Positions 16,793-26,582 of a stretch of 64,000 bases of DNA are shown in pieces. The stretch's first letter is position 1; each line of letters begins with the position of its first letter. Where the stretch lies: NCBI GenBank assembly GCA_913057205.1, contig CAJXNO010000001.1, positions 1 through 64,000 of the forward strand, in the 5' to 3' direction. The position numbers and the translations under genes are program-made. This DNA is from an uncultured Flavobacteriales bacterium. GTDB taxonomy: Bacteria > Bacteroidota > Bacteroidia > Flavobacteriales_G > Salibacteraceae. The notes beneath the pieces were generated by a model. It ran no database searches. It worked only from the letters and a program-made list of their open reading frames with translations, and was not told where the DNA came from.

Positions 16793-17356
16793 TTAGAGCG
16801 ATCGAGAAGCCTCATCCAAGGCATTGAACCAATCCTCCCCGTACTTCCTGATCAAGGCCTCTTTGGCAAACTGATGCACAGACACTTTTAGCGATTGACC
16901 TAAGGTGCACGCATCACTACAAATGTTCCATCGCTCATAGTTTACCGCTTCAAAGTCGCGATAGCGCTTGGTTCGGATCGGGTAGAGGTGGCAACTGATG
17001 GGCTTTCGGAAGTGGGTCTTTCCTTCCTTCCATGCCAACTCGATGCCACACATGGCCATGCCTTCTTTTGAAAAGACGGTGTATGCGCATTCCTTCCCAT
17101 CGCGCAAGGGGGTAACAAAATCGCCGTCGTCATCTACAACAGAAGTTCCTTGAGCCTCAACCGAGTCGACCCCCTCCTGACGCAGGTAGGGTTTGAAGTT
17201 TTCGTATTCATCCTTCAGAATACCCACTTCTTCTTCTGTAAGTGGCGCGCCTGAATCACCCTCAACGCAACAGGCTCCCTTACATGCATGGAGATCGCAT
17301 ACGAAGGCTTTTTGAACCACCTCCAACGACACGATCTTATCGTCGATCTGAATCAT
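16793..17356 (-). CDS. DUF3109 family cysteine-rich protein
   Basis: 187-residue protein of unknown function, typical of DUF3109 in Bacteroidota. The early segment CDLHACKGACCVEGDSGAP and later cysteines (CAYTVF, MCGIE, SCHLYPI, NICSDACTLG) suggest a metal or Fe-S centre, which is inference. The open frame extends about 190 codons further upstream, but that part is antisense to glyS; I chose the ATG giving MIQIDDKIVS because the conserved family start is there and a TAnnTTTG box sits just before it. Divergent from glyS over 66 bp. Confidence 0.88.
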   Translation of the reverse strand: MIQIDDKIVSLEVVQKAFVCDLHACKGACCVEGDSGAPLTEEEVGILKDEYENFKPYLRQEGVDSVEAQGTSVVDDDGDFVTPLRDGKECAYTVFSKEGMAMCGIELAWKEGKTHFRKPISCHLYPIRTKRYRDFEAVNYERWNICSDACTLGQSLKVSVHQFAKEALIRKYGEDWFNALDEASRSL

Positions 17357-17360
17357 CGGA

Positions 17361-17418
17361 CAAAGGTATGCTTCGACGGAAGTTTTTATCGTAGCAATCA
17401 TTTGCCCTTCTACTTTTG
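17361..17418. promoter_or_regulatory. Divergent -7 boxes for DUF3109 gene and glyS
   Basis: Minus strand: TACCTTTG (17368-17361), then 4 nt, then the DUF3109 ATG. Plus strand: TACTTTTG (17411-17418), then 4 nt, then the glyS ATG. Both match the Bacteroidota -7 consensus TAnnTTTG exactly. With initiation a few bases past the box, both mRNAs would start at or next to the start codon. Clear -33 TTG boxes at ideal spacing are not seen. Confidence 0.6.
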
Positions 17419-17422
17419 CGCC

Positions 17423-18940
17423 ATGAATCAAGAGGACCTCTTTAAGAATGTGATCTCCCATGCCAAGGAGTATGGGTTTGTGTTTCCATCCAGCGAGATT
17501 TACGATGGGTTGAGTGCGGTGTATGACTACGGACAACTCGGTGCCGAGCTCAAGAATAACATCAAGGCATACTGGTGGAAGAGTATGGTTCAAATGCACG
17601 AGAACATCGTTGGGATCGATTCTGCGATCTTCATGCATCCGACCACCTGGAAGGCTTCCGGACACGTAGACGCTTTCAACGACCCGTTGATCGACAACAA
17701 AGACAGCAAGAAGCGCTACCGGGCAGACGTTCTCATCGAAGACCACATCACCAAGATCGAAGCCAAGATCGATAAGGAGATCAAGAAGGCAGAAAAACGC
17801 TTTGGTGACTCCTTTGATGCGGACATGTATAAGGAAACCAATCCGAGGGTCAAAGGCTACATCGACAAGATCTCCTCGATTGAAAAACGCATGAAGCGTT
17901 GCTTGGATGAAGGCGACCTTGAAGACCTGAAGCAACTCATCCTCGACGAAGAGATCGCTGATCCGATTGGGGGTTCACGTAATTGGACAGACGTTCGCCA
18001 ATTCAACCTTATGTTCAGTACGGAGATGGGTTCTGTGGCAGAGGGGTCGAATAAGATCTACCTGAGACCGGAGACCGCGCAAGGCATATTTGTGAATTAC
18101 CTCAATGTGCAGAAGACCGGACGGATGAAGATCCCTTTTGGTATCGCACAGATCGGTAAGGCGTTCCGAAATGAGATCGTAGCCCGACAGTTCATCTTCC
18201 GTATGCGAGAATTTGAGCAGATGGAGATGCAGTTCTTCGTGAAGCCTGGAACTGAAATGGAATGGTATGCCTACTGGAAGGAAGAGCGCATGAAATGGCA
18301 CCGATCCCTCGGCATCAGCGAAGACTCCTACCGTTTTCATGATCATATCAAGTTGGCGCACTATGCAAACGCCGCAGCCGATATTGAATTCAAGTTCCCA
18401 TTCGGCTTTAAGGAGTTGGAGGGCATCCACTCCCGCACGGACTTCGACCTTAAGCAGCATGAAGAACACAGTGGAAAGAAACTCCAGTATTTCGATCCAG
18501 AAGAGAACAAGAACTATGTACCTTACGTGGTAGAGACTTCCATCGGACTCGACCGTATGTTCTTAGCGATGCTTTCCTACGCCTACACCGAAGAGCAATT
18601 GGAAGATGGCTCTGAACGAACGGTACTTAAACTTCCGGCAAAACTCGCGCCGTATAAAGTTGCCATCTTGCCGCTCTTGAAGAAAGACGGACTACCGGAG
18701 AAAGCACGCGAGATCATGGCGCAACTTCAAGAAGATTACATGTGCCAGTATGATGAGAAGGATGCCATCGGACGCCGATACCGCCGTCAGGATGCTATCG
18801 GCACTCCTTTCGCCGTTACCGTAGACCATCAGACCCTAGAAGACCAAACCGTCACCATTCGTGAGCGTGACTCCATGCAACAAGAACGTGTGAGCATCGA
18901 CCAGCTCGACGGTATCATTCGCGCCAAGCTAAAGTCATAG
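17423..18940 (+). CDS. glyS: Glycine--tRNA ligase, dimeric (eukaryote-type)
   Basis: Class II aminoacyl-tRNA synthetase that charges tRNA-Gly. The chosen start gives MNQEDLFKNVISHAKEYGFVFP (quoted in part) and a 505-residue protein, the normal size. Landmarks are YDGLSAVYDYGQLG, the motif 2 region FRNEIVARQFIFRMREFEQME, and motif 3 ETSIGLDRMFLAML. The C-terminal anticodon-binding domain starts near APYKVAILPL. A longer in-frame version extends 45 codons upstream but overlaps the divergent gene and lacks family similarity. Confidence 0.96.
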   Translation: MNQEDLFKNVISHAKEYGFVFPSSEIYDGLSAVYDYGQLGAELKNNIKAYWWKSMVQMHENIVGIDSAIFMHPTTWKASGHVDAFNDPLIDNKDSKKRYRADVLIEDHITKIEAKIDKEIKKAEKRFGDSFDADMYKETNPRVKGYIDKISSIEKRMKRCLDEGDLEDLKQLILDEEIADPIGGSRNWTDVRQFNLMFSTEMGSVAEGSNKIYLRPETAQGIFVNYLNVQKTGRMKIPFGIAQIGKAFRNEIVARQFIFRMREFEQMEMQFFVKPGTEMEWYAYWKEERMKWHRSLGISEDSYRFHDHIKLAHYANAAADIEFKFPFGFKELEGIHSRTDFDLKQHEEHSGKKLQYFDPEENKNYVPYVVETSIGLDRMFLAMLSYAYTEEQLEDGSERTVLKLPAKLAPYKVAILPLLKKDGLPEKAREIMAQLQEDYMCQYDEKDAIGRRYRRQDAIGTPFAVTVDHQTLEDQTVTIRERDSMQQERVSIDQLDGIIRAKLKS

Positions 18941-19007
18941 GCAGAAAATCAACGTATTAGATGCGTTCCTAAGATTCAGGTAATGTTTCGGATAAGAAAT
19001 CTTTATC

Positions 19008-19093
19008 TAGAATCATTCTAAATACCACATTTATGGTATTGTGCTGCAAGCTGTTCTAGGCTGACTTTTGTCGCTGTTTAGAATTATTCTTAA
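19008..19093 (+). promoter_or_regulatory. Promoter and two Fur-like inverted repeats of the haem-uptake operon
   Basis: Two similar 1-nt-spaced inverted repeats: TAGAATcATTCTA (19008-19020) and TTAGAATtATTCTTA (19078-19092). Between them are TTG (19039-19041) and, 21 bp on, GACTTTTG (19063-19070), close to the -33/-7 consensus. The second repeat would cover the transcription start, where a repressor would act. A third palindrome AATACCA/TGGTATT lies at 19021-19040. The layout fits an iron or haem repressor such as Fur; that identity is inferred. Confidence 0.5.
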
Positions 19094-19104
19094 TAACAGC
19101 ACAC

Positions 19105-20355
19105 ATGAAACACGTTCTACCCTTGCTCTTAGCAGCATTCGTCTCTTATTCAAGCCTTGCGCAAACAAAAGACTCCGTGATGATCGGAGCCGGCTACAGC
19201 GATCATGTCTGGTACAGCCTGGAAACAGGTGAAGTAGCCAGATCAGCCAAAGACCGCTGGGACTTCGCCTTTTCCGTCTCAGGATTCGGTAGCTCCATTC
19301 TGTTGAATCACTTGAATGACAACAAGCTTTATGTCTATCCCAACGGCGATACCGCCTCATGGACTACGCTGGACACCAACGGTATCAGTACTTGGAGCCA
19401 GCTTTACAACAGCGATACATCTTGGAACTATGGAGCGTTCAACGCCAATACAGACCGAGATAACGACTTCGACCTCGGTTGGGGCGTGTACAACATGATC
19501 ACTCATCAAGTGGTTGGTGACAGCCTTTTTGTTCTTCAACAGGGCAACGCATTCAAGAAGATATGGATCAAAGGCTTAGCCGGAGGCGTCTACACCGTGA
19601 AGTTGGCCAACCTTGATGGAAGCCAAGAAGTGGATGTTGCCATCAATAAAGCGGATTATGGTCAACGCAACTTCGTTTACTACTCCGTATCAGCCAACGA
19701 GATCCGTAACCTTGAGCCACTCAATGATGCTTGGGACGTAAAATTCACCCAATACACCACCATCATTCCGAGCTTCGGGGGTTATCCAGCGAGCGGCGTC
19801 TTGCAGAATGGTAACGTTACTACGGCTCAGGTTTCAGAAGTTGGAGACCCACTGAATTTTGACGACCATGAGCGCCAGGAGTTCTCTACAGAGATCAATA
19901 CCATCGGCCACGACTGGAAATCATTCGACTTCGCCACCAACCAGTGGTCGATCGATGACAGCACGGTCTACTTCGTACGTGCTCGGAATGGAGCTTTGTG
20001 GCGCTTGGTCTTTACTGACTTCGGGGGCAGCGCAACGGGAAAATATGTATTCCAAAAGGAGCTGATCGAAGAGGCGAGTGAGCTTCCACAGGGCGTTGAA
20101 GCACCTTCTAAGGCATCGCTCCAGATCTACCCGAATCCGAGCAATCAAGGTTGGGCCAATCTTTTGTATGCTTCCAATGCTCCTGTTCAACTCACGATTC
20201 ACGACCTGCAGGGAAGGGTGGTGTACAGCGCGCAGCAAGGTGCCGCCGTGCTTGGACAAATACAGCTCTCAACACAAGCCTGGTCTGCCGGCATGTATAT
20301 CGTACGCATGGAGAGCAGCGGAGCAACACAAACCCAAAAACTGATCATAAACTAA
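19105..20355 (+). CDS. HmuY-like haem-binding protein with T9SS type A sorting domain
   Basis: 416 residues. Signal peptide MKHVLPLLLAAFVSYSSLAQ, then a HmuY-family domain. The family hallmarks are YSDHVWYSLETGEV, RWDFAFSVSGF, WDVKFTQYTT followed by the YPASGVLQN turn, and the closing YFVRARNGALWRLVFTDF. The C-terminal 75 residues (LQIYPNPSNQG, GRVVYS, AGMYIVRM, KLIIN) are a typical T9SS type A sorting domain, so the protein is probably exported to the surface or medium. HmuY proteins capture haem for TonB-dependent receptors. First gene of a five-gene unit ending in a second HmuY-like protein. Confidence 0.88.
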   Translation: MKHVLPLLLAAFVSYSSLAQTKDSVMIGAGYSDHVWYSLETGEVARSAKDRWDFAFSVSGFGSSILLNHLNDNKLYVYPNGDTASWTTLDTNGISTWSQLYNSDTSWNYGAFNANTDRDNDFDLGWGVYNMITHQVVGDSLFVLQQGNAFKKIWIKGLAGGVYTVKLANLDGSQEVDVAINKADYGQRNFVYYSVSANEIRNLEPLNDAWDVKFTQYTTIIPSFGGYPASGVLQNGNVTTAQVSEVGDPLNFDDHERQEFSTEINTIGHDWKSFDFATNQWSIDDSTVYFVRARNGALWRLVFTDFGGSATGKYVFQKELIEEASELPQGVEAPSKASLQIYPNPSNQGWANLLYASNAPVQLTIHDLQGRVVYSAQQGAAVLGQIQLSTQAWSAGMYIVRMESSGATQTQKLIIN

Positions 20356-20373
20356 CATGACGAAGACTCCCTG

Positions 20374-20389
20374 CCCAGCTTCGGTTGGG
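20374..20389 (+). other. UUCG-capped hairpin between HmuY-like gene and DUF6607 gene
   Basis: CCCAGC-TTCG-GTTGGG forms a 6-bp stem with the very stable UUCG tetraloop, in the 66-bp gap of the operon. There is no T-run, so it may be a processing or stability element rather than a terminator. Confidence 0.4.
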
Positions 20390-20421
20390 TGGGGTTTACT
20401 TTCTCCTTAAACCAATACGAC

Positions 20422-21369
20422 ATGAAAACAAAAAACACCCTCGCCATCGCTGTCGCACTCGTCTTTTCTGCCGTGAGCATGGCCCAAGACAAAGCTGCAG
20501 ACGTGGAAGCCATCAAGGCGATGTGCGGCTGCTATGCAATCACCTTTGATTATGCAGAAACCTTTTCACCAGACACCAATTACCAACTCAAAGACTCCTA
20601 TCATGCCAAGGCAGATGCAGAGTGGGTGTTTATAGAAGAGGAAAGCGAAGACGAACTTGTCCTTCAACACCTGTTGGTGATCGGTGATACCATGGTGATT
20701 AAGCACTGGCGTCAAGACTGGATCTATGAGAACACCGATTTCCACCATTTTGACAAGAACAAGACGTGGAACTACGTAGCAGCGACACCTGAGTCGGTGA
20801 AAGGTCAGTGGACACAAAAGGTCTATCAGGTAGATGACAGTCCACGCTACGAAGGATCTGCCTCATGGGTACACGTAGACGGCAGACACTATTGGGAAAG
20901 TATCACAGATGCCCCTCTACCTCGACGCGAGTTCACCAAGCGCTCAGACTACGATGTGATGAAGCGCCGCAACCGTCACGAGATCACGAACTACGGTTGG
21001 GTGCATGAGCAAGACAATGAAAAACTTGTGCGTGAGCAGGGAGGCGACCGTTTGATCGCAGAAGAGAAGGGGTGGAATAAGTACACCAAGGTAGATGAGT
21101 CGAAATGTCAAGCAGCCAAAGATTGGTGGCAAGAGCACAAGGATTATTGGGCATTGGTACGTGCGGAATGGGATGCGGTCTTCGCCCAAAAGGAAAGTTT
21201 GTCCTTGGCGAGTACGGTGAATGACCAGAAGCTTTTTCAAGCCCTCTTTGCTTTGGGTGACGAAGCGAAGGAGAGTGCCAAGAAAAACCCTGAGGCCGTG
21301 CGCAAGGAGATCGCGGCTACCATTAGTAGCTTCCAATCTGCCGCTGCAACCACAGGAATGACAGAGTAG
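20422..21369 (+). CDS. DUF6607 family secreted protein
   Basis: 315 residues with a signal peptide (MKTKNTLAIAVALVFSAVSMAQ, cleaved after AQ). The mature protein is rich in aromatic and charged residues (HWRQDWIYENTDFHHFD, WNYVAATPESVKGQWTQKVYQ in parts), with a helical, Lys-rich C-terminal third. I recognise it as DUF6607-like, a family of unknown function; the match is from memory and not certain. Its position between a HmuY-like gene and a TonB-dependent receptor argues for a periplasmic role in haem uptake or handling. The start was chosen for the signal peptide; an upstream in-frame ATG adds 11 residues. Confidence 0.75.
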   Translation: MKTKNTLAIAVALVFSAVSMAQDKAADVEAIKAMCGCYAITFDYAETFSPDTNYQLKDSYHAKADAEWVFIEEESEDELVLQHLLVIGDTMVIKHWRQDWIYENTDFHHFDKNKTWNYVAATPESVKGQWTQKVYQVDDSPRYEGSASWVHVDGRHYWESITDAPLPRREFTKRSDYDVMKRRNRHEITNYGWVHEQDNEKLVREQGGDRLIAEEKGWNKYTKVDESKCQAAKDWWQEHKDYWALVRAEWDAVFAQKESLSLASTVNDQKLFQALFALGDEAKESAKKNPEAVRKEIAATISSFQSAAATTGMTE

Positions 21370-21400
21370 GGTCTCATAGGTTATGAGGTAATGACCCTGA

Positions 21401-21426
21401 GAGAGCGGCATTCGCCGCTCTCTTTT
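21401..21426 (+). terminator. Rho-independent terminator inside the haem operon
   Basis: Perfect 9-bp stem GAGAGCGGC / GCCGCTCTC with an ATTC loop, followed by TTTT, between the DUF6607 gene and the four-TM gene. It should reduce or end transcription, so the distal receptor genes may need read-through or a second promoter. Confidence 0.75.
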
Positions 21427-21440
21427 AAATCAACGCAAGA

Positions 21441-21872
21441 ATGGAAAAGCATCAAATAAGAGTGATTGTATTGTGGGTGGTATGCTTGATCGGAATGATC
21501 TTGCATTTCAACTATCACGTCAGCAAGATCTTCTATGGCATCAACGTAGTTCGTCCCGGCGCTACCGGAGAGATCTCTGCTATGGCGCATGTCATGAAGA
21601 GTGTTTACTACCATCTGCCCATGATCTTCATCGTGGCGCAGTTGTATTTCACCGCAGCTTGGTTTCGTTTGACCATGTTTGGTATCAGCATCATCTACAG
21701 TTTCTCTCACGTATTGCACGTGGTCGATGAGGTCACCAAGCCCGTCTTGGACTGGTCGCAAATACCCTTGTTGAGCCTGGTATTGATCTTCAGTCTGCTT
21801 CTCAATTGGAGTTCATGGATGTACTACAGGGCAGCAGTGCCAGCTAAGCGTACAACAGCACAATTAGCGTGA
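21441..21872 (+). CDS. Small integral membrane protein (four TM) in haem-uptake operon
   Basis: 143 residues with four predicted transmembrane segments: about 8-24 (VIVLWVVCLIGMILHF), 56-74 (YYHLPMIFIVAQLYFTAAWF), 77-93 and 105-124. Several conserved-looking histidines (HFNYHV, AHVMKSVYYH, SHVLHVVDE) lie in or near the membrane and could bind haem or metal; that is inference. I do not recognise a named family. The stop overlaps the GTG start of the receptor gene, so it is co-translated with it. Confidence 0.75.
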   Translation: MEKHQIRVIVLWVVCLIGMILHFNYHVSKIFYGINVVRPGATGEISAMAHVMKSVYYHLPMIFIVAQLYFTAAWFRLTMFGISIIYSFSHVLHVVDEVTKPVLDWSQIPLLSLVLIFSLLLNWSSWMYYRAAVPAKRTTAQLA

Positions 21873-24127
21873 GGCCCTCGTTCTACATAGCGCTAGTGGC
21901 AGGCTTGTTTTCTTTCTTTTCCTCAACGGCCCAGGTAGCGGTGCGCATCATCGATGAGGAAGAACGGAATCCATTGGCCTTTGCTCATGTGCTTCGCTAC
22001 GACCTGACAGGTAAGCGCGTTGAAGCATTCGTCACCAACGCTTCTGGAGAGGTCATGATTCAAGAACGACCATCGCGCAGTAATCCGTTGATCATCGAGT
22101 TGAAGTACTTGGGGTATGAGACCCAACGAGATACGCTGGTTAGCAATAACGCGGTGACCTATATGCTTGCACCCTCTGACATCTACCTGAATGAGGTGGT
22201 GATCACTGCTCAATACGGTCAGGCTTCCGCCGAGCAGTCGGTGCACAAGGTGAAGGTCATCGATGAGCAGAAGATCCAGAAGATGGCAGCGGTGAACCTG
22301 GAGGATGTACTGACCAACGAGGTCAACATCCGTATTTCACAGGATGCCGTGCTTGGGAGTGGGGTGAGCATGCAGGGCTTGAGCGGACAGAACGTCAAGA
22401 TCATGATCGATGGGGTGCCTGTGATCGGTCGACAGAACGGCAACATAGACCTCAGACAGATCAACTTGAACGATGTGGAGCGAATCGAGATCATCGAGGG
22501 TCCGCTTAGTGTGAACTATGGAACGGATGCTTTGGCCGGGACCATCAACATCATCACCAAGAAAACATCCAGCGACAAGACTTCCCTTCAAGTGAGTTCT
22601 TACAATGAAACGGTGGGGCGCTACAACCTGAATGCGTCGTTGAATCAACAGATCGGACCGCTACGCGCATCGCTCAGTGGAGGTAGGAATTTCTTCAACG
22701 GATGGGCTCCAAACGATCGGATAGAACCCAACAGTGAGCAGCCGGTCGCAGATACCACCCGCGTGAAGCCTTGGGATCCCAGGATGCAATACTTCGGTCG
22801 GGCTCAATTGAGCCTGGTTCAAACCAAACACCGCTTTACCTGGCGTTCCGAGCTCTTCGATGAGCGCATCGATAACCGAGGTATGCCACGAGCCCCCTAT
22901 TTTGAGCAAGCCTTTGACGATGTCTACATCACCCGTAGAAGCGATCACGCCCTCAGTGTCAGTGGACAGTTCAGCACTGCCTTAAGCTATCAAGCCGTAG
23001 CAGGTTACAACACCTTCGAGCGCATCAGCAACACCTACCGCACCGACCTTACTACCTTGGAACGCCAACTCACTACCGTGCCTGGCGATCAAGATACCGC
23101 ACTGGCGCAGCAGTGGATGAGTAGGGCAAGCCTCGTACACACCTTGATCCCCACCCAATTGACTTGGGAGATTGGTTATGACGTGAACAGAGAAACAGCT
23201 GTGGGTGCACGCATTGAAGACGGGCGTCAAGTCATGGGCGACTACGCTGCTTTTGCTACGGCAGAATGGAGTCCGAATGAGCATTTTACCCTTCGTCCGG
23301 GATTGCGCTATGCCTACAACACCGCATATGATGCTCCGCTGACACCTTCCCTCAACATACGATATGCAATCAAAGACTGGGTGATTCGCTCCTCCTATGC
23401 ACGGGGTTTTCGAGCACCCGGCTTGAAAGAGCTGTATTTCACTTTTGTAGACATCAACCATAATATCGTTGGTAATACGGCCCTTGAGGCGGAGTACAGC
23501 CACAACTTCAACGCATCAGCCAAGTACAAGCATCTTTTCAAGCAAACCTTGGTGCAATGGGAAGCTTCCGGGTTTTACAACAGCATCGAGAACCAGATTA
23601 CCCTTGGATTAGTGGATCAAGCCACCCAAGAATACAGCTACATTAATGTAGGTCGCACACAAACCATGGGGTTGAATACAAGCGCCGGGCTGGTGCTCGA
23701 GCATTTAAAGTGGAACGCTGCCGTTGCGCTCATCGGCTTGCGCAATGCCTTTGCGGTGGAGGAAGAGGTGGGGTTTTCCTACTATCCTGAGGTGACCTCC
23801 AACCTTACCTACACGTGGCAGCGCACGGGCCTTGAAGCCTCCTTGTTCTACAAGTACCAAGGTAGGCTCCCACAGGTGCAGCTGGATGCAAATGGAGAGC
23901 CCTTCACAGGCTTCATAGATGCTTACCACACCCTTGATGCGAACCTGGCACGCGACCTGATGGATGATCGTTTTCGCTTGAGCCTTGGTGCCAAGAACCT
24001 GTTTAATGTGCAGAATGTTGCCATGCTCGGTGCAGGAGGCGGCGCGCATGGGGGAGGTGGCAATGCGGCGTTGGTAGGAATGGGACGTATTTACTTCCTA
24101 AAGCTTGATTTCAAATGGACACGATGA
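21869..24127 (+). CDS. TonB-dependent outer-membrane receptor, probably for haem
   Basis: 752-residue receptor, starting at GTG inside the previous stop. Signal peptide to about residue 22, a carboxypeptidase-regulatory-like domain (about 23-105, ending YLNEVVITA), plug domain (about 120-230, with MIDGVPVIGRQNG, IEIIEGPLSVNYGTDALAGTINIIT, quoted in parts) and a 22-strand-type barrel. HmuR-like features near the barrel are SYARGFRAPGLKELYF and HNIVGNTALEAEYSHNF. It should import a TonB-energised ligand; flanking HmuY-like genes point to haem. The stop overlaps the next start. Confidence 0.9.
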   Translation: MRPSFYIALVAGLFSFFSSTAQVAVRIIDEEERNPLAFAHVLRYDLTGKRVEAFVTNASGEVMIQERPSRSNPLIIELKYLGYETQRDTLVSNNAVTYMLAPSDIYLNEVVITAQYGQASAEQSVHKVKVIDEQKIQKMAAVNLEDVLTNEVNIRISQDAVLGSGVSMQGLSGQNVKIMIDGVPVIGRQNGNIDLRQINLNDVERIEIIEGPLSVNYGTDALAGTINIITKKTSSDKTSLQVSSYNETVGRYNLNASLNQQIGPLRASLSGGRNFFNGWAPNDRIEPNSEQPVADTTRVKPWDPRMQYFGRAQLSLVQTKHRFTWRSELFDERIDNRGMPRAPYFEQAFDDVYITRRSDHALSVSGQFSTALSYQAVAGYNTFERISNTYRTDLTTLERQLTTVPGDQDTALAQQWMSRASLVHTLIPTQLTWEIGYDVNRETAVGARIEDGRQVMGDYAAFATAEWSPNEHFTLRPGLRYAYNTAYDAPLTPSLNIRYAIKDWVIRSSYARGFRAPGLKELYFTFVDINHNIVGNTALEAEYSHNFNASAKYKHLFKQTLVQWEASGFYNSIENQITLGLVDQATQEYSYINVGRTQTMGLNTSAGLVLEHLKWNAAVALIGLRNAFAVEEEVGFSYYPEVTSNLTYTWQRTGLEASLFYKYQGRLPQVQLDANGEPFTGFIDAYHTLDANLARDLMDDRFRLSLGAKNLFNVQNVAMLGAGGGAHGGGGNAALVGMGRIYFLKLDFKWTR

Positions 24128-25104
24128 GGACGAGGCTTTGCAGCTTTTGGAGGGGACTCGTGCTTGGACCGGTCTTCCTGTTGCTTTTGGCATGCGAGAA
24201 GGAGGAGCTTCCGGTTAAGCCCTATGACCGCGGAGATGCGGAAGAGATGGTGATCCCAATCGGGGTAGATTATAGCGACCAGGTTTGGTTTGACTTGGGC
24301 ACGAAGAGCATAGTTGCTACCAACGAAAAACTATCCTGGGATTTTGCCTTTGATTGCCGAGACTCGCTGCACTACATCTACCTGAACACTTCGCTTGCGA
24401 TGATGGCAGCGCCCACCGGACAAACGGAGTTTGATGCTCCGATCGACGAGGCATCCTTGCGTTTTCGTCCCGATCATTCCTCTGGTTCCTTGGATAGCCT
24501 AGCCTTGGGAACGTGGTGGCGCACCGAGGAGGTGTTTGTCCTGGACTTGGGTTTCCGGTTGAACGGGAATATACGGGGTAAGCGGAAGGTGCAGTTTTTT
24601 CTCGAAGGTGATGTGCTTCGCTTCGTAATTGCTGATCTCGATGGATCCAACCGTCAAGAAGGTCAACTGGAGAAGCAGTCGGGATATGGCAAGGTGGCCT
24701 ACTCGTTAAGGGATGCTTCACCCGTTCAGATCGAACCAGGCGAGGACGATTATGACCTAGTGTTCACCCAGTACACCTACGCCTTCTATAATCCATATAC
24801 GCCATACTTGGTCACCGGAGTGCTCAATAACCCGAGGCTTCAAGGCAGTGCCGAGATCAACCATAAGCCCTTTGATGAAGTGAGTTTAGAAGACGCCATG
24901 GCGGTTGAGATGAGGGATAGTTTGGACCTGATTGGCTATGATTGGAAGGTGTATGACTTCGATCAAGGCAGCTATACGATCTTTTCGGATAAGGTCTACA
25001 TCGTTCGCGACCATGAAGGGTTCTATTACAAGCTTCACTTTCTTGATTTCTACAATGAACAAGGAGAACGCGGCTACCCATCCTTGCGCATTCAGCAACT
25101 CTAA
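24124..25104 (+). CDS. HmuY-like lipoprotein
   Basis: 326 residues. The lipobox LLLLACEKEE near residue 24 marks it as a lipoprotein. The HmuY-family pattern is clear: VDYSDQVWFDLGTKSIV, SWDFAFDC, YDLVFTQYTY then YLVTGVLNN, and VYIVRDHEGFYYKLHFLDF. It is a diverged paralogue of the first gene of the operon but membrane-anchored and without a T9SS domain. The start at the ATGA overlap with the receptor is preferred; an in-frame ATG 9 bp upstream is possible. Likely the surface-anchored haem-binding partner of the receptor. Confidence 0.85.
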   Translation: MRTRLCSFWRGLVLGPVFLLLLACEKEELPVKPYDRGDAEEMVIPIGVDYSDQVWFDLGTKSIVATNEKLSWDFAFDCRDSLHYIYLNTSLAMMAAPTGQTEFDAPIDEASLRFRPDHSSGSLDSLALGTWWRTEEVFVLDLGFRLNGNIRGKRKVQFFLEGDVLRFVIADLDGSNRQEGQLEKQSGYGKVAYSLRDASPVQIEPGEDDYDLVFTQYTYAFYNPYTPYLVTGVLNNPRLQGSAEINHKPFDEVSLEDAMAVEMRDSLDLIGYDWKVYDFDQGSYTIFSDKVYIVRDHEGFYYKLHFLDFYNEQGERGYPSLRIQQL

Positions 25105-25145
25105 TACGTGGTGGTGGAGCAGAGAGGATTTCCTATCTCTGTAGG

Positions 25146-26582
25146 ATGAATCGCTCCTACTGGGCCTTGCTCATCCTACTCCTTACCGCAGTGCTCTTGC
25201 GCCTGCCCATGATTTTGGGTGACCATTTTGTGCTGGATGGCGATGAAGCGATTGTGGCACTGATGAGCCTGGAAGCGCTTGAGGAAGGTGTTTGGCGACC
25301 GCTTTTTTGGGGCCAGAACTACGGCTTCGTCTTGCCAGAGATGCTCACCACCGTTCCATTCATTGCGGCGTTTGGGTTGAACGCCTTTACCACCAAACTT
25401 CCCATGTTACTGTGGTTTCTGCTTGGTGCAGTAGCCATTTTCGGGACACTTGAACGCTTCACTTCGTCCACACCCCGCCTTCTGCTTACGCTGTTAGTTT
25501 TGCTAGCGCCAACTTGGCTCCTTTGGTCGGTGCGCTTGCGTGGAGGATATGTTCCGGCTTTTGCAGTGGCTCATCTCGCCATTTACTTATCCGTCGTCAG
25601 CGATGAAATGCGGCCCACAAGGGGTTCCTTGATCGGTGTACTGCTGGGTTTAACATTCGTGCTACAAGCGATTTGGTTTCCGGGTGCGGTGTGCTTTGCG
25701 TTGGTTGCTTGGTGGCGAACAGGAAGGGATGTGCGGTCCATACTGGCAGCCACAGTTTCCATGGTGATTCCTTACTTGGCGCTCCTGCCTTTTCAAGTGG
25801 ACGCCCCCTTTCACCAACCACCATTCTTTCAGTTCGATGCAGATGTGATTGCGTTCAATACTTCGGTTTACGTGAGTTACCTAGAACGCGGTATGCAAGG
25901 CCTGCACCTACATGGCAGAGCATTCCGTGAGTTGGTCAGTGCCAACATCTTTTCGATCGGGTTTTTGTTGCTAACGCTGGTGGTGCTAGGAGTAGGGTTA
26001 CGTCGTCTCCTTTCCGGAAAGAAGCTAGGATACTTGGTTGCTGCCATTGCAGCGATCCTCGGCTTATTGCTGTGGTCTTTCTTTCTAGGCAGCGCCGCAC
26101 CGCGCTATGCGCTTCCGATGTTCGGTTACGTCATCTTAGCGCTTGGAATGCTCTGGCCGAAACAGGGTGGCAGTTGGTTAACCCTTGTCTTGCTGGGATT
26201 CATTGGCTTGGGTGTGCATACGCTGATCAATGGTCATGAGGTAAAGTATGAGGACAATACCCGCAGTGCAACCCACGAGCTCATCCGTATGCTGGAAGAA
26301 GAGGAGGTTGAATTGATCTTTACAGAGAACTACCTGCTCCAGTGGCAGCTGATGTACTATGCAGATGGAAAGATACTGGCTCGTTCGTTGACGCGCTTTG
26401 ATCGGCGTCCAGACCGCATGGAAAAGGCAGAAGAGATCTATGCAAATCGAAGCAACCGAACGGCGCTGGTTGATTTTAGGAAGGACGCAAGATTTGATCC
26501 AGATTGGTTGAACCGAGAGTTCTGCGTGCGCATCGCTCCTACGGAAGCATTCCTGCAAGAGCGAGGCTTCAGGGAATTCTAA
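25146..26582 (+). CDS. GT-C type membrane glycosyltransferase (ArnT/PMT-like)
   Basis: 478 residues with about ten transmembrane helices. The first extracytoplasmic loop holds the acidic motif LDGDEAIVAL, the site of the catalytic Asp in GT39/GT83-like enzymes that use polyprenyl-phosphate sugars. A soluble C-terminal part of about 100 residues follows. Substrate cannot be told. It begins 41 bp after the HmuY-like lipoprotein gene; a TATCTCTG box 4 nt before its ATG is one mismatch from the -7 consensus, so it may have its own promoter. Confidence 0.75.
   Translation: MNRSYWALLILLLTAVLLRLPMILGDHFVLDGDEAIVALMSLEALEEGVWRPLFWGQNYGFVLPEMLTTVPFIAAFGLNAFTTKLPMLLWFLLGAVAIFGTLERFTSSTPRLLLTLLVLLAPTWLLWSVRLRGGYVPAFAVAHLAIYLSVVSDEMRPTRGSLIGVLLGLTFVLQAIWFPGAVCFALVAWWRTGRDVRSILAATVSMVIPYLALLPFQVDAPFHQPPFFQFDADVIAFNTSVYVSYLERGMQGLHLHGRAFRELVSANIFSIGFLLLTLVVLGVGLRRLLSGKKLGYLVAAIAAILGLLLWSFFLGSAAPRYALPMFGYVILALGMLWPKQGGSWLTLVLLGFIGLGVHTLINGHEVKYEDNTRSATHELIRMLEEEEVELIFTENYLLQWQLMYYADGKILARSLTRFDRRPDRMEKAEEIYANRSNRTALVDFRKDARFDPDWLNREFCVRIAPTEAFLQERGFREF

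Follow-up and report, generated by a model that had tools for sequence, protein, structure and literature searches.

A known system close to the locus described here is that of Riemerella anatipestifer, where rhuH and rhuR-rhuA are divergently oriented and a Fur box is present (PMC11967795). The matching RA-YM locus was annotated as HmuY, a receptor and a hypothetical protein, all of them Fur-regulated (PMC5609570). RhuH is a novel haemophore with a crystal structure published in 2025 (8xjc). It binds haem with a Kd of 3.4e-11 M, takes it from haemoglobin and is secreted in OMVs. Both the deletion of rhuH and the His96Ala exchange caused a growth defect, and the function is conserved in the homologues of F. 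columnare and F. soli (PMC11967795).

We analysed a 64,000-nt stretch of DNA from an uncultured Flavobacteriales bacterium (hereafter the window). At 19105-25104 it carries five genes, all on the + strand: a first HmuY-like protein (Y1), a DUF6607 protein, a protein with four transmembrane (TM) helices (M4), a TonB-dependent receptor and a second HmuY-like protein (Y2). With rhuH/rhuR-rhuA of Riemerella the locus shares a RhuH-family haemophore, a TonB receptor, an HmuY-type surface protein and the same type of Fur box (PMC11967795). Unlike in Riemerella, the genes are co-oriented with no divergent promoter, and a T9SS-secreted HmuY and M4 are added.

Other systems resemble parts of the locus. 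The HmuY-HmuR(STUV) system of Porphyromonas also combines an HmuY haemophore with a TonB receptor under low-iron regulation, but the window holds DUF6607/RhuH and M4 instead of a CobN-like HmuS and its partners, and the His/Met ligands of HmuY are not conserved. In Flavobacterium psychrophilum, hfpR-DoxX-hfpY likewise unites a receptor, a small inner-membrane protein and an HmuY-like protein in one operon (PMC9331221); there, however, the inner-membrane protein is DoxX, which showed no relation to M4 at the profile level, and DUF6607 and a second HmuY are missing. Y1, with its HmuY domain and T9SS sorting domain, is like the T9SS-secreted HmuY of Flavobacterium columnare, although the available part of that report does not describe a second HmuY, DUF6607 or a four-TM partner beside it (PMC9618737). 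Finally, M4 corresponds to the C-terminal domain of some PepSY_TM proteins and has His in its TM helices, as do the periplasmic reductases of that family (FoxB, HiuB and CrpH). Unlike these, it stands alone without a PepSY domain, and a FoxB-like activity of M4 is only putative.

Based on computational results for gene content, protein families, conserved ligand residues, the Fur-box match and recurrence, we consider it very likely that the locus is a Fur-repressed haem-scavenging operon, an enlarged version of the Riemerella rhuH/rhuR-rhuA type. This grade applies to the system as a whole and not to the M4 step. Operons of this kind are known (Rhu/Hmu); M4 and the arrangement are what is new, and DUF6607 is not.

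Operon layout and predicted iron regulation

The sequence-only reading that preceded this work had proposed a five-gene haem-acquisition operon at this place, and we confirmed every gene with its position and strand; haem acquisition as the role of the operon was also supported. Y1 (19105..20355, + strand) encodes 416 aa, with a T9SS sorting domain at residues 341-415 and predicted T9SS secretion. It is followed by the DUF6607 gene (20422..21369, +; 315 aa with a signal peptide), M4 (21441..21872, +; a predicted inner-membrane protein of 143 aa), the receptor (21869..24127, +; 752 aa) and the lipoprotein Y2 (24115..25104, +; 329 aa). The last three of the five genes overlap. The receptor starts with a GTG at 21869 that shares four nucleotides (GTGA) with the stop of M4, as had been noticed before, and the receptor and Y2 reading frames overlap by 13 nt.

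The operon ends at Y2, with no CobN-like HmuS or partner membrane genes. The uptake system had been called complete, which does not hold for the operon itself: TonB/ExbBD, ABC transporter and haem-degrading genes were not found among its five genes. In the flanks (17288-26582), glyS is the upstream neighbour, and a multi-TM gene for a protein of 478 aa, assigned to no family in the domain search, starts 41 nt downstream of Y2. The GC content of the operon (0.51 vs. 0.48) is about one standard deviation over the mean of 6-kb windows and is by itself no evidence of foreign origin.

Two palindromes precede Y1. The first, TAGAATCATTCTA (19008..19020, +), is perfect and corresponds to the core of the Fur box known from Riemerella, ATTTAGAATTATTCTAAAT, which has EMSA support for selected promoters (PMC5609570). 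The second, TAGAATTATTCTT (19079..19091, +), is Fur-box-like and lies 13 bp upstream of the Y1 ATG. These were the only two Fur-type sites with at most one mismatch in the 64-kb window, and a pair of them did not arise in any of 100 shuffled versions of it. Genome-wide, 10 sites were found at this threshold vs. two for the reversed control. Besides the two of the operon, they include one that ends less than 25 nt before feoA-feoB (L144, about 1507), one some 80 nt ahead of a ferritin gene (L140, about 1507) and one some 120 nt ahead of a cytochrome c gene (L142, about 1507). The genome has one Fur-family match. In many other loci, a raw pattern scan detected similar boxes ahead of the genes for the receptor, DUF6607 or a Y protein. 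A sigma-70 scan was of no use, as one would expect given the promoters of Bacteroidota. The Fur-box match predicts an operon that is iron-controlled and Fur-repressed.

The DUF6607 protein

The protein matched Pfam DUF6607 with E 1.6e-114. We found no paper that uses this name, and the connection with RhuH came from a fold search rather than a literature search by name. An AlphaFold2 model built from 44 homologues (mean pLDDT of 90.3) had a convincing Foldseek match in the PDB to one fold, 8xjc (E 1e-33); this structural match had TM scores of 0.77/0.87 and 49% identity. The RhuH sequence itself matched the window protein in phmmer with E 4e-90. DUF6607 is therefore the RhuH haemophore family, by sequence and predicted fold, which ties an unannotated Pfam family to a proven haemophore.

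In RhuH, His96 is the haem-iron ligand, and R143, Y144, R170, R183 and Q198 contact the propionates (PMC11967795). The HMMER alignment places these residues at H95, R142, Y143, R169, R182 and Q197 of the window protein. The first five were invariant in the 44 homologues and Q197 was at least 90% conserved. By analogy with its relatives, the window protein would capture haem, taking it from haemoproteins.

DUF6607 had been regarded as a protein of unknown function and as one of two uncharacterised partners of the HmuY-like proteins. That description remains appropriate for M4, but not for DUF6607, whose family has a crystal structure published in 2025. Since DUF6607 is RhuH, the operon is the rhuH/rhuR-rhuA system of Riemerella in a larger version, and it contains three candidate haem binders instead of two.

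Recurrence of the locus in Bacteroidota

The DUF6607 scan of the genome collection gave at least 80 loci, all from Bacteroidota by their titles. The survey set comprised 88 loci: 80 listed ones, the window and seven relatives, with two duplicate pairs included. A receptor relative was present in the fetched stretch of 79 of these 88 loci and an HmuY relative in 57; the HmuY figure is more telling because receptors are common. Thus, DUF6607 does recur beside HmuY and TonB receptors, as expected from the original proposal.

Two main layouts recurred among the loci listed. Cytophagales presented receptor-HmuY-DoxX-DUF6607, and many Flavobacteriaceae loci presented DUF6607 divergent from receptor-HmuY-DoxX, which matches rhuH / rhuR-rhuA. 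As in the window, a T9SS-tailed Y1 adjoined DUF6607 and/or the receptor in about a dozen listed loci, most of them with a Y2 behind the receptor.

The slot next to DUF6607 was variable, being occupied by DoxX, DUF6686, FMN_bind, or a cassette of ankyrin, DUF2271 and PepSY_TM/flavodoxin. The nearest overall backbone to the window was that of G015, from the same family, which has DUF6686 in place of M4, whereas the nearest M4 was in G495; therefore, the slot appears exchangeable. Across the 88 loci, RhuH, HmuY and a TonB receptor make up a widespread haem-uptake module of Bacteroidota with an apparently exchangeable inner-membrane or redox slot.

Other small genes were observed at or near this position. 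DUF6686-type proteins lay in or near the slot of M4 in L012:8070-8408 (a weak match), L061:10886-11233 (a strong match) and L087:11790-12125 (assigned by resemblance). A second four-TM family of about 170 aa was seen near DUF6607 in L015:7068-7571, L014:7672-8178 and L046:11847-12365; the member in L015 had no Pfam match and adjoins an FMN-binding protein. In L013, L017, L062, L079, L084, L090 and L091, DUF6607 was followed by, or close to, ankyrin, DUF2271 and PepSY_TM/flavodoxin-reductase genes, with identities Pfam-checked in L079 only. Such neighbours suggest a redox link for RhuH-type proteins.

DUF6607 was found in none of 12 genomes of the same genus, five of which were under 90% complete. 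In two of these congeners (G009 and G007), glyS is directly followed by a relative of the 478-aa gene, without the operon. Thus, the operon was either inserted in the lineage of the window or lost in these congeners.

The four-TM protein M4

M4 matched no Pfam or NCBIfam family, and the one hit of a profile search against PDB sequences was weak and looked unrelated (E 0.034). We considered DoxX as an identity for M4 and rejected it: the hhalign probability against the DoxX proteins of related loci was 0.6%, and there was no Pfam match. The AF2 model from the single sequence had a pTM of 0.36, too weak for the His22-His93 geometry or a fold search. The four TM helices reported earlier stand, but the label His-rich does not: histidines are 7 of the 143 residues, and the two invariant ones are those that matter.

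A genome search for relatives of M4 found both standalone and fused copies. G495 (L127), from another family of the same class, has the identical five-gene order, with an M4 64% identical. In G218, G482 and G172, from another class of the phylum, the order is receptor-M4-HmuY-DUF6607-flavodoxin; in two of them, G218 and G482, the string continues with a small gene (DUF6686-type or similar) and one of the PepSY_TM type (families checked in G218), and in G172 the M4 reading frame appears broken near TM1. These strings, with or without the DUF6686-PepSY_TM extension, are in L134:5686-13453, L133 and L159. The four-TM family, like DUF6607, therefore recurs beside HmuY and TonB receptors. G279 has a receptor-M4 pair, and the family of G218 has further copies that are more remote (E 1e-10 to 1e-16). 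As a side observation, L134, L133 and L159 each have the flavodoxin gene inside a haem-uptake locus.

In four genomes (G181, G404, G255 and G412), M4 forms the last ~130 residues of PepSY_TM proteins of ~690-730 aa, near TonB receptors (L129:7065-9131, L130:7598-9661, L131:7347-9527 and L132:8869-10917). In L129, two small membrane ORFs (113 and 100 aa, with no Pfam match) lie between the receptor and the fusion.

Ten M4 copies, standalone and fused, were aligned. H22 and H93 were invariant in 10/10, and the residues common to all were L11, W12, G18, H22, H93, L111 and L121. Judging from hydropathy and positive-inside charges, H22 is probably near the periplasmic end of TM1 and H93 near that of TM3. 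Some caution is needed, since His in helix ends also arises by chance.

An added inner-membrane component had been part of the original proposal. It is plausible from the four hydrophobic helices and from DoxX and PepSY_TM proteins in the same slot of relatives. PepSY_TM proteins of the FoxB type carry two haems, held between TM histidines, and reduce ferrisiderophores (PMC13038864, PMC13001220). From this, the fusion of M4 to PepSY_TM and H22/H93, we infer that M4 handles haem or acts as a haem-binding redox protein. The likeliest mechanism, which we hold tentatively, is that of an inner-membrane haem-binding redox or haem-transfer protein. With His22 (TM1) and His93 (TM3) near the periplasmic face, M4 would most likely bind haem between them and either give electrons to the haem-iron or receive the haem, filling the job of the PepSY_TM or DoxX proteins in related loci.

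An extension of this mechanism is more doubtful. With hesitation, we suggest that M4 might stand for a new family: small bis-histidine haem proteins of the inner membrane that serve haem-iron import, used either alone beside haemophores and a TonB receptor or as a module fused to PepSY_TM reductases. To our knowledge, the passage of haem or iron across the inner membrane of Bacteroidota, and its prior reduction, are poorly known. If true, a bis-histidine M4 would supply a missing link from haem uptake at the outer membrane to the reductive release of iron in this phylum. In any case, M4 is now named as a concrete, testable protein with two candidate haem ligands.

M4 could instead be a haem carrier or permease subunit across the inner membrane, a DoxX substitute with no redox role. 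Of the listed DUF6607 loci, 38 carry a DoxX-type four-TM protein, mostly placed between DUF6607, HmuY and the receptor or adjacent to them, and DoxX is also part of hfpR-DoxX-hfpY in F. psychrophilum (PMC9331221). Moreover, M4 of G025 adjoins ABC-transporter genes of the solute-binding (periplasmic-binding-protein) type. However, none of the DoxX proteins of DUF6607 loci resembles M4, as the hhalign value reflects, and its fusion to a reductase family in four genomes points to electron transfer, so we regard the permease as unlikely.

Another unlikely explanation is that M4 binds no cofactor and acts as a small modulator of the uptake system or as a partner in its assembly. For some substrates, the small membrane protein HiuC is needed in addition to HiuB, a PepSY protein (PMC13001220), and M4 can be fused to PepSY_TM. 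Nevertheless, the search of the window's genome gave no PepSY_TM protein with which M4 could pair in this way, and the invariance of two His, in helices that vary elsewhere, speaks for their being ligands. As a consequence of the absent PepSY_TM, M4 as a haem-binding protein would act alone or with another partner.

HmuY-like proteins

The earlier distinction between a secreted and an anchored HmuY-like protein, one with a T9SS tag and the other with a lipobox, was borne out. In Y1, the sorting domain was clear (Pfam E 1.4e-14; TIGR04183 5e-16), and the match to HmuY (PF14064) reached 24.3 bits, under the 27-bit cut-off. Among 12 Y1 orthologues, 10 matched HmuY at E<=0.001 and all had the sorting domain, and the Y1 and Y2 families matched each other with 100% hhalign probability. 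Y2 matched PF14064 with E 4.5e-19 (69.6 bits). The whole assembly contained two HmuY matches, both in this operon.

A clear PorV match in the window's genome indicates a T9SS machine, by which Y1 would be exported outside the cell. The lipobox Cys27 of Y2 is followed by a surface-export signal, C-E-K-E-E, which fits the published optimum for surface-exposed lipoproteins (LES), C-X-K-(D/E)2-X (PMC5080379), in its C-X-K-(D/E)2 part. Cys27, Glu31 and Pro33 were invariant in 11 Y2 orthologues. Y2 would be a surface-exposed, RhuA-like HmuY lipoprotein beside the receptor.

His134 was invariant in the 12 Y1 orthologues, and no His or Met was conserved among the Y2 orthologues. The classical axial His/His or Met/Met pair of haem ligands was kept in neither family. 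Since ligands vary within the HmuY family, their absence lowers the claim of haem binding and not that of domain membership. Their kinship with HfpY and RhuA makes haem binding by Y1 and Y2 plausible.

One could argue that Y1 and Y2 have lost haem binding and act as docking or adhesive surface proteins, leaving haem capture to DUF6607 alone. The missing His or Met pair of Y2 would fit, as would the F. columnare hmuY mutant, which grew normally in iron-limited medium (PMC9618737). Against this, HfpY of F. psychrophilum binds haem via non-classical ligands (PMC9331221), and RhuA binds haem too, but cannot extract it from haemoglobin (PMC11967795). We consider the loss of haem binding improbable.

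TonB-dependent receptor

The receptor presented a plug (8e-21) and a barrel (7e-38). Haem receptors carry a signature of the FRAP...His...NPNL type. The window receptor reads FRAP514...His531...GNTALEAE535, and a FRAP-NHN-GNxxL signature is common to the close receptor clade. Its score for NCBIfam TonB-hemin (103 vs. 317 bits) did not reach the cut-off, and its top NCBIfam score was TonB-B12, also far under the cut-off. Import of another chelate (cobalamin, siderophore or copper) could be read from that top score and from the PepSY_TM proteins that also serve siderophore and copper uptake, but it is very improbable, as every NCBIfam score of the receptor is far under its family cut-off, DUF6607 retains all the haem-contact residues of RhuH, and haem-iron is what both the HmuY proteins and the Fur boxes suggest.

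Proposed haem route and expression levels

Haem capture, secretion and hand-over are proposed here by analogy with relatives. At low iron, the three haem binders (Y1, the RhuH-type DUF6607 protein and Y2) would be made and would hand haem to the single TonB-dependent receptor for import into the periplasm.

The two genes for predicted released or haem-capturing proteins at the start of the operon are each followed by a terminator-like hairpin. The one after Y1 (20369..20394, +) has an 11 bp stem and a TTCG loop (-22.5 kcal/mol, z -3.55), and the one after DUF6607 (21399..21424, +) also has an 11 bp stem (-26.8 kcal/mol, z -4.59); each was equalled in 0/200 shuffles. In F. psychrophilum and P. 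gingivalis, haemophore mRNA exceeds receptor mRNA (PMC9331221). Together with the hairpins, this makes a stepwise drop of expression along the operon likely: the hairpins would probably raise the haemophores over the receptor, so that they are made in excess. Hairpins were also seen 3' of haemophore genes in some, not all, of the orthologous loci.
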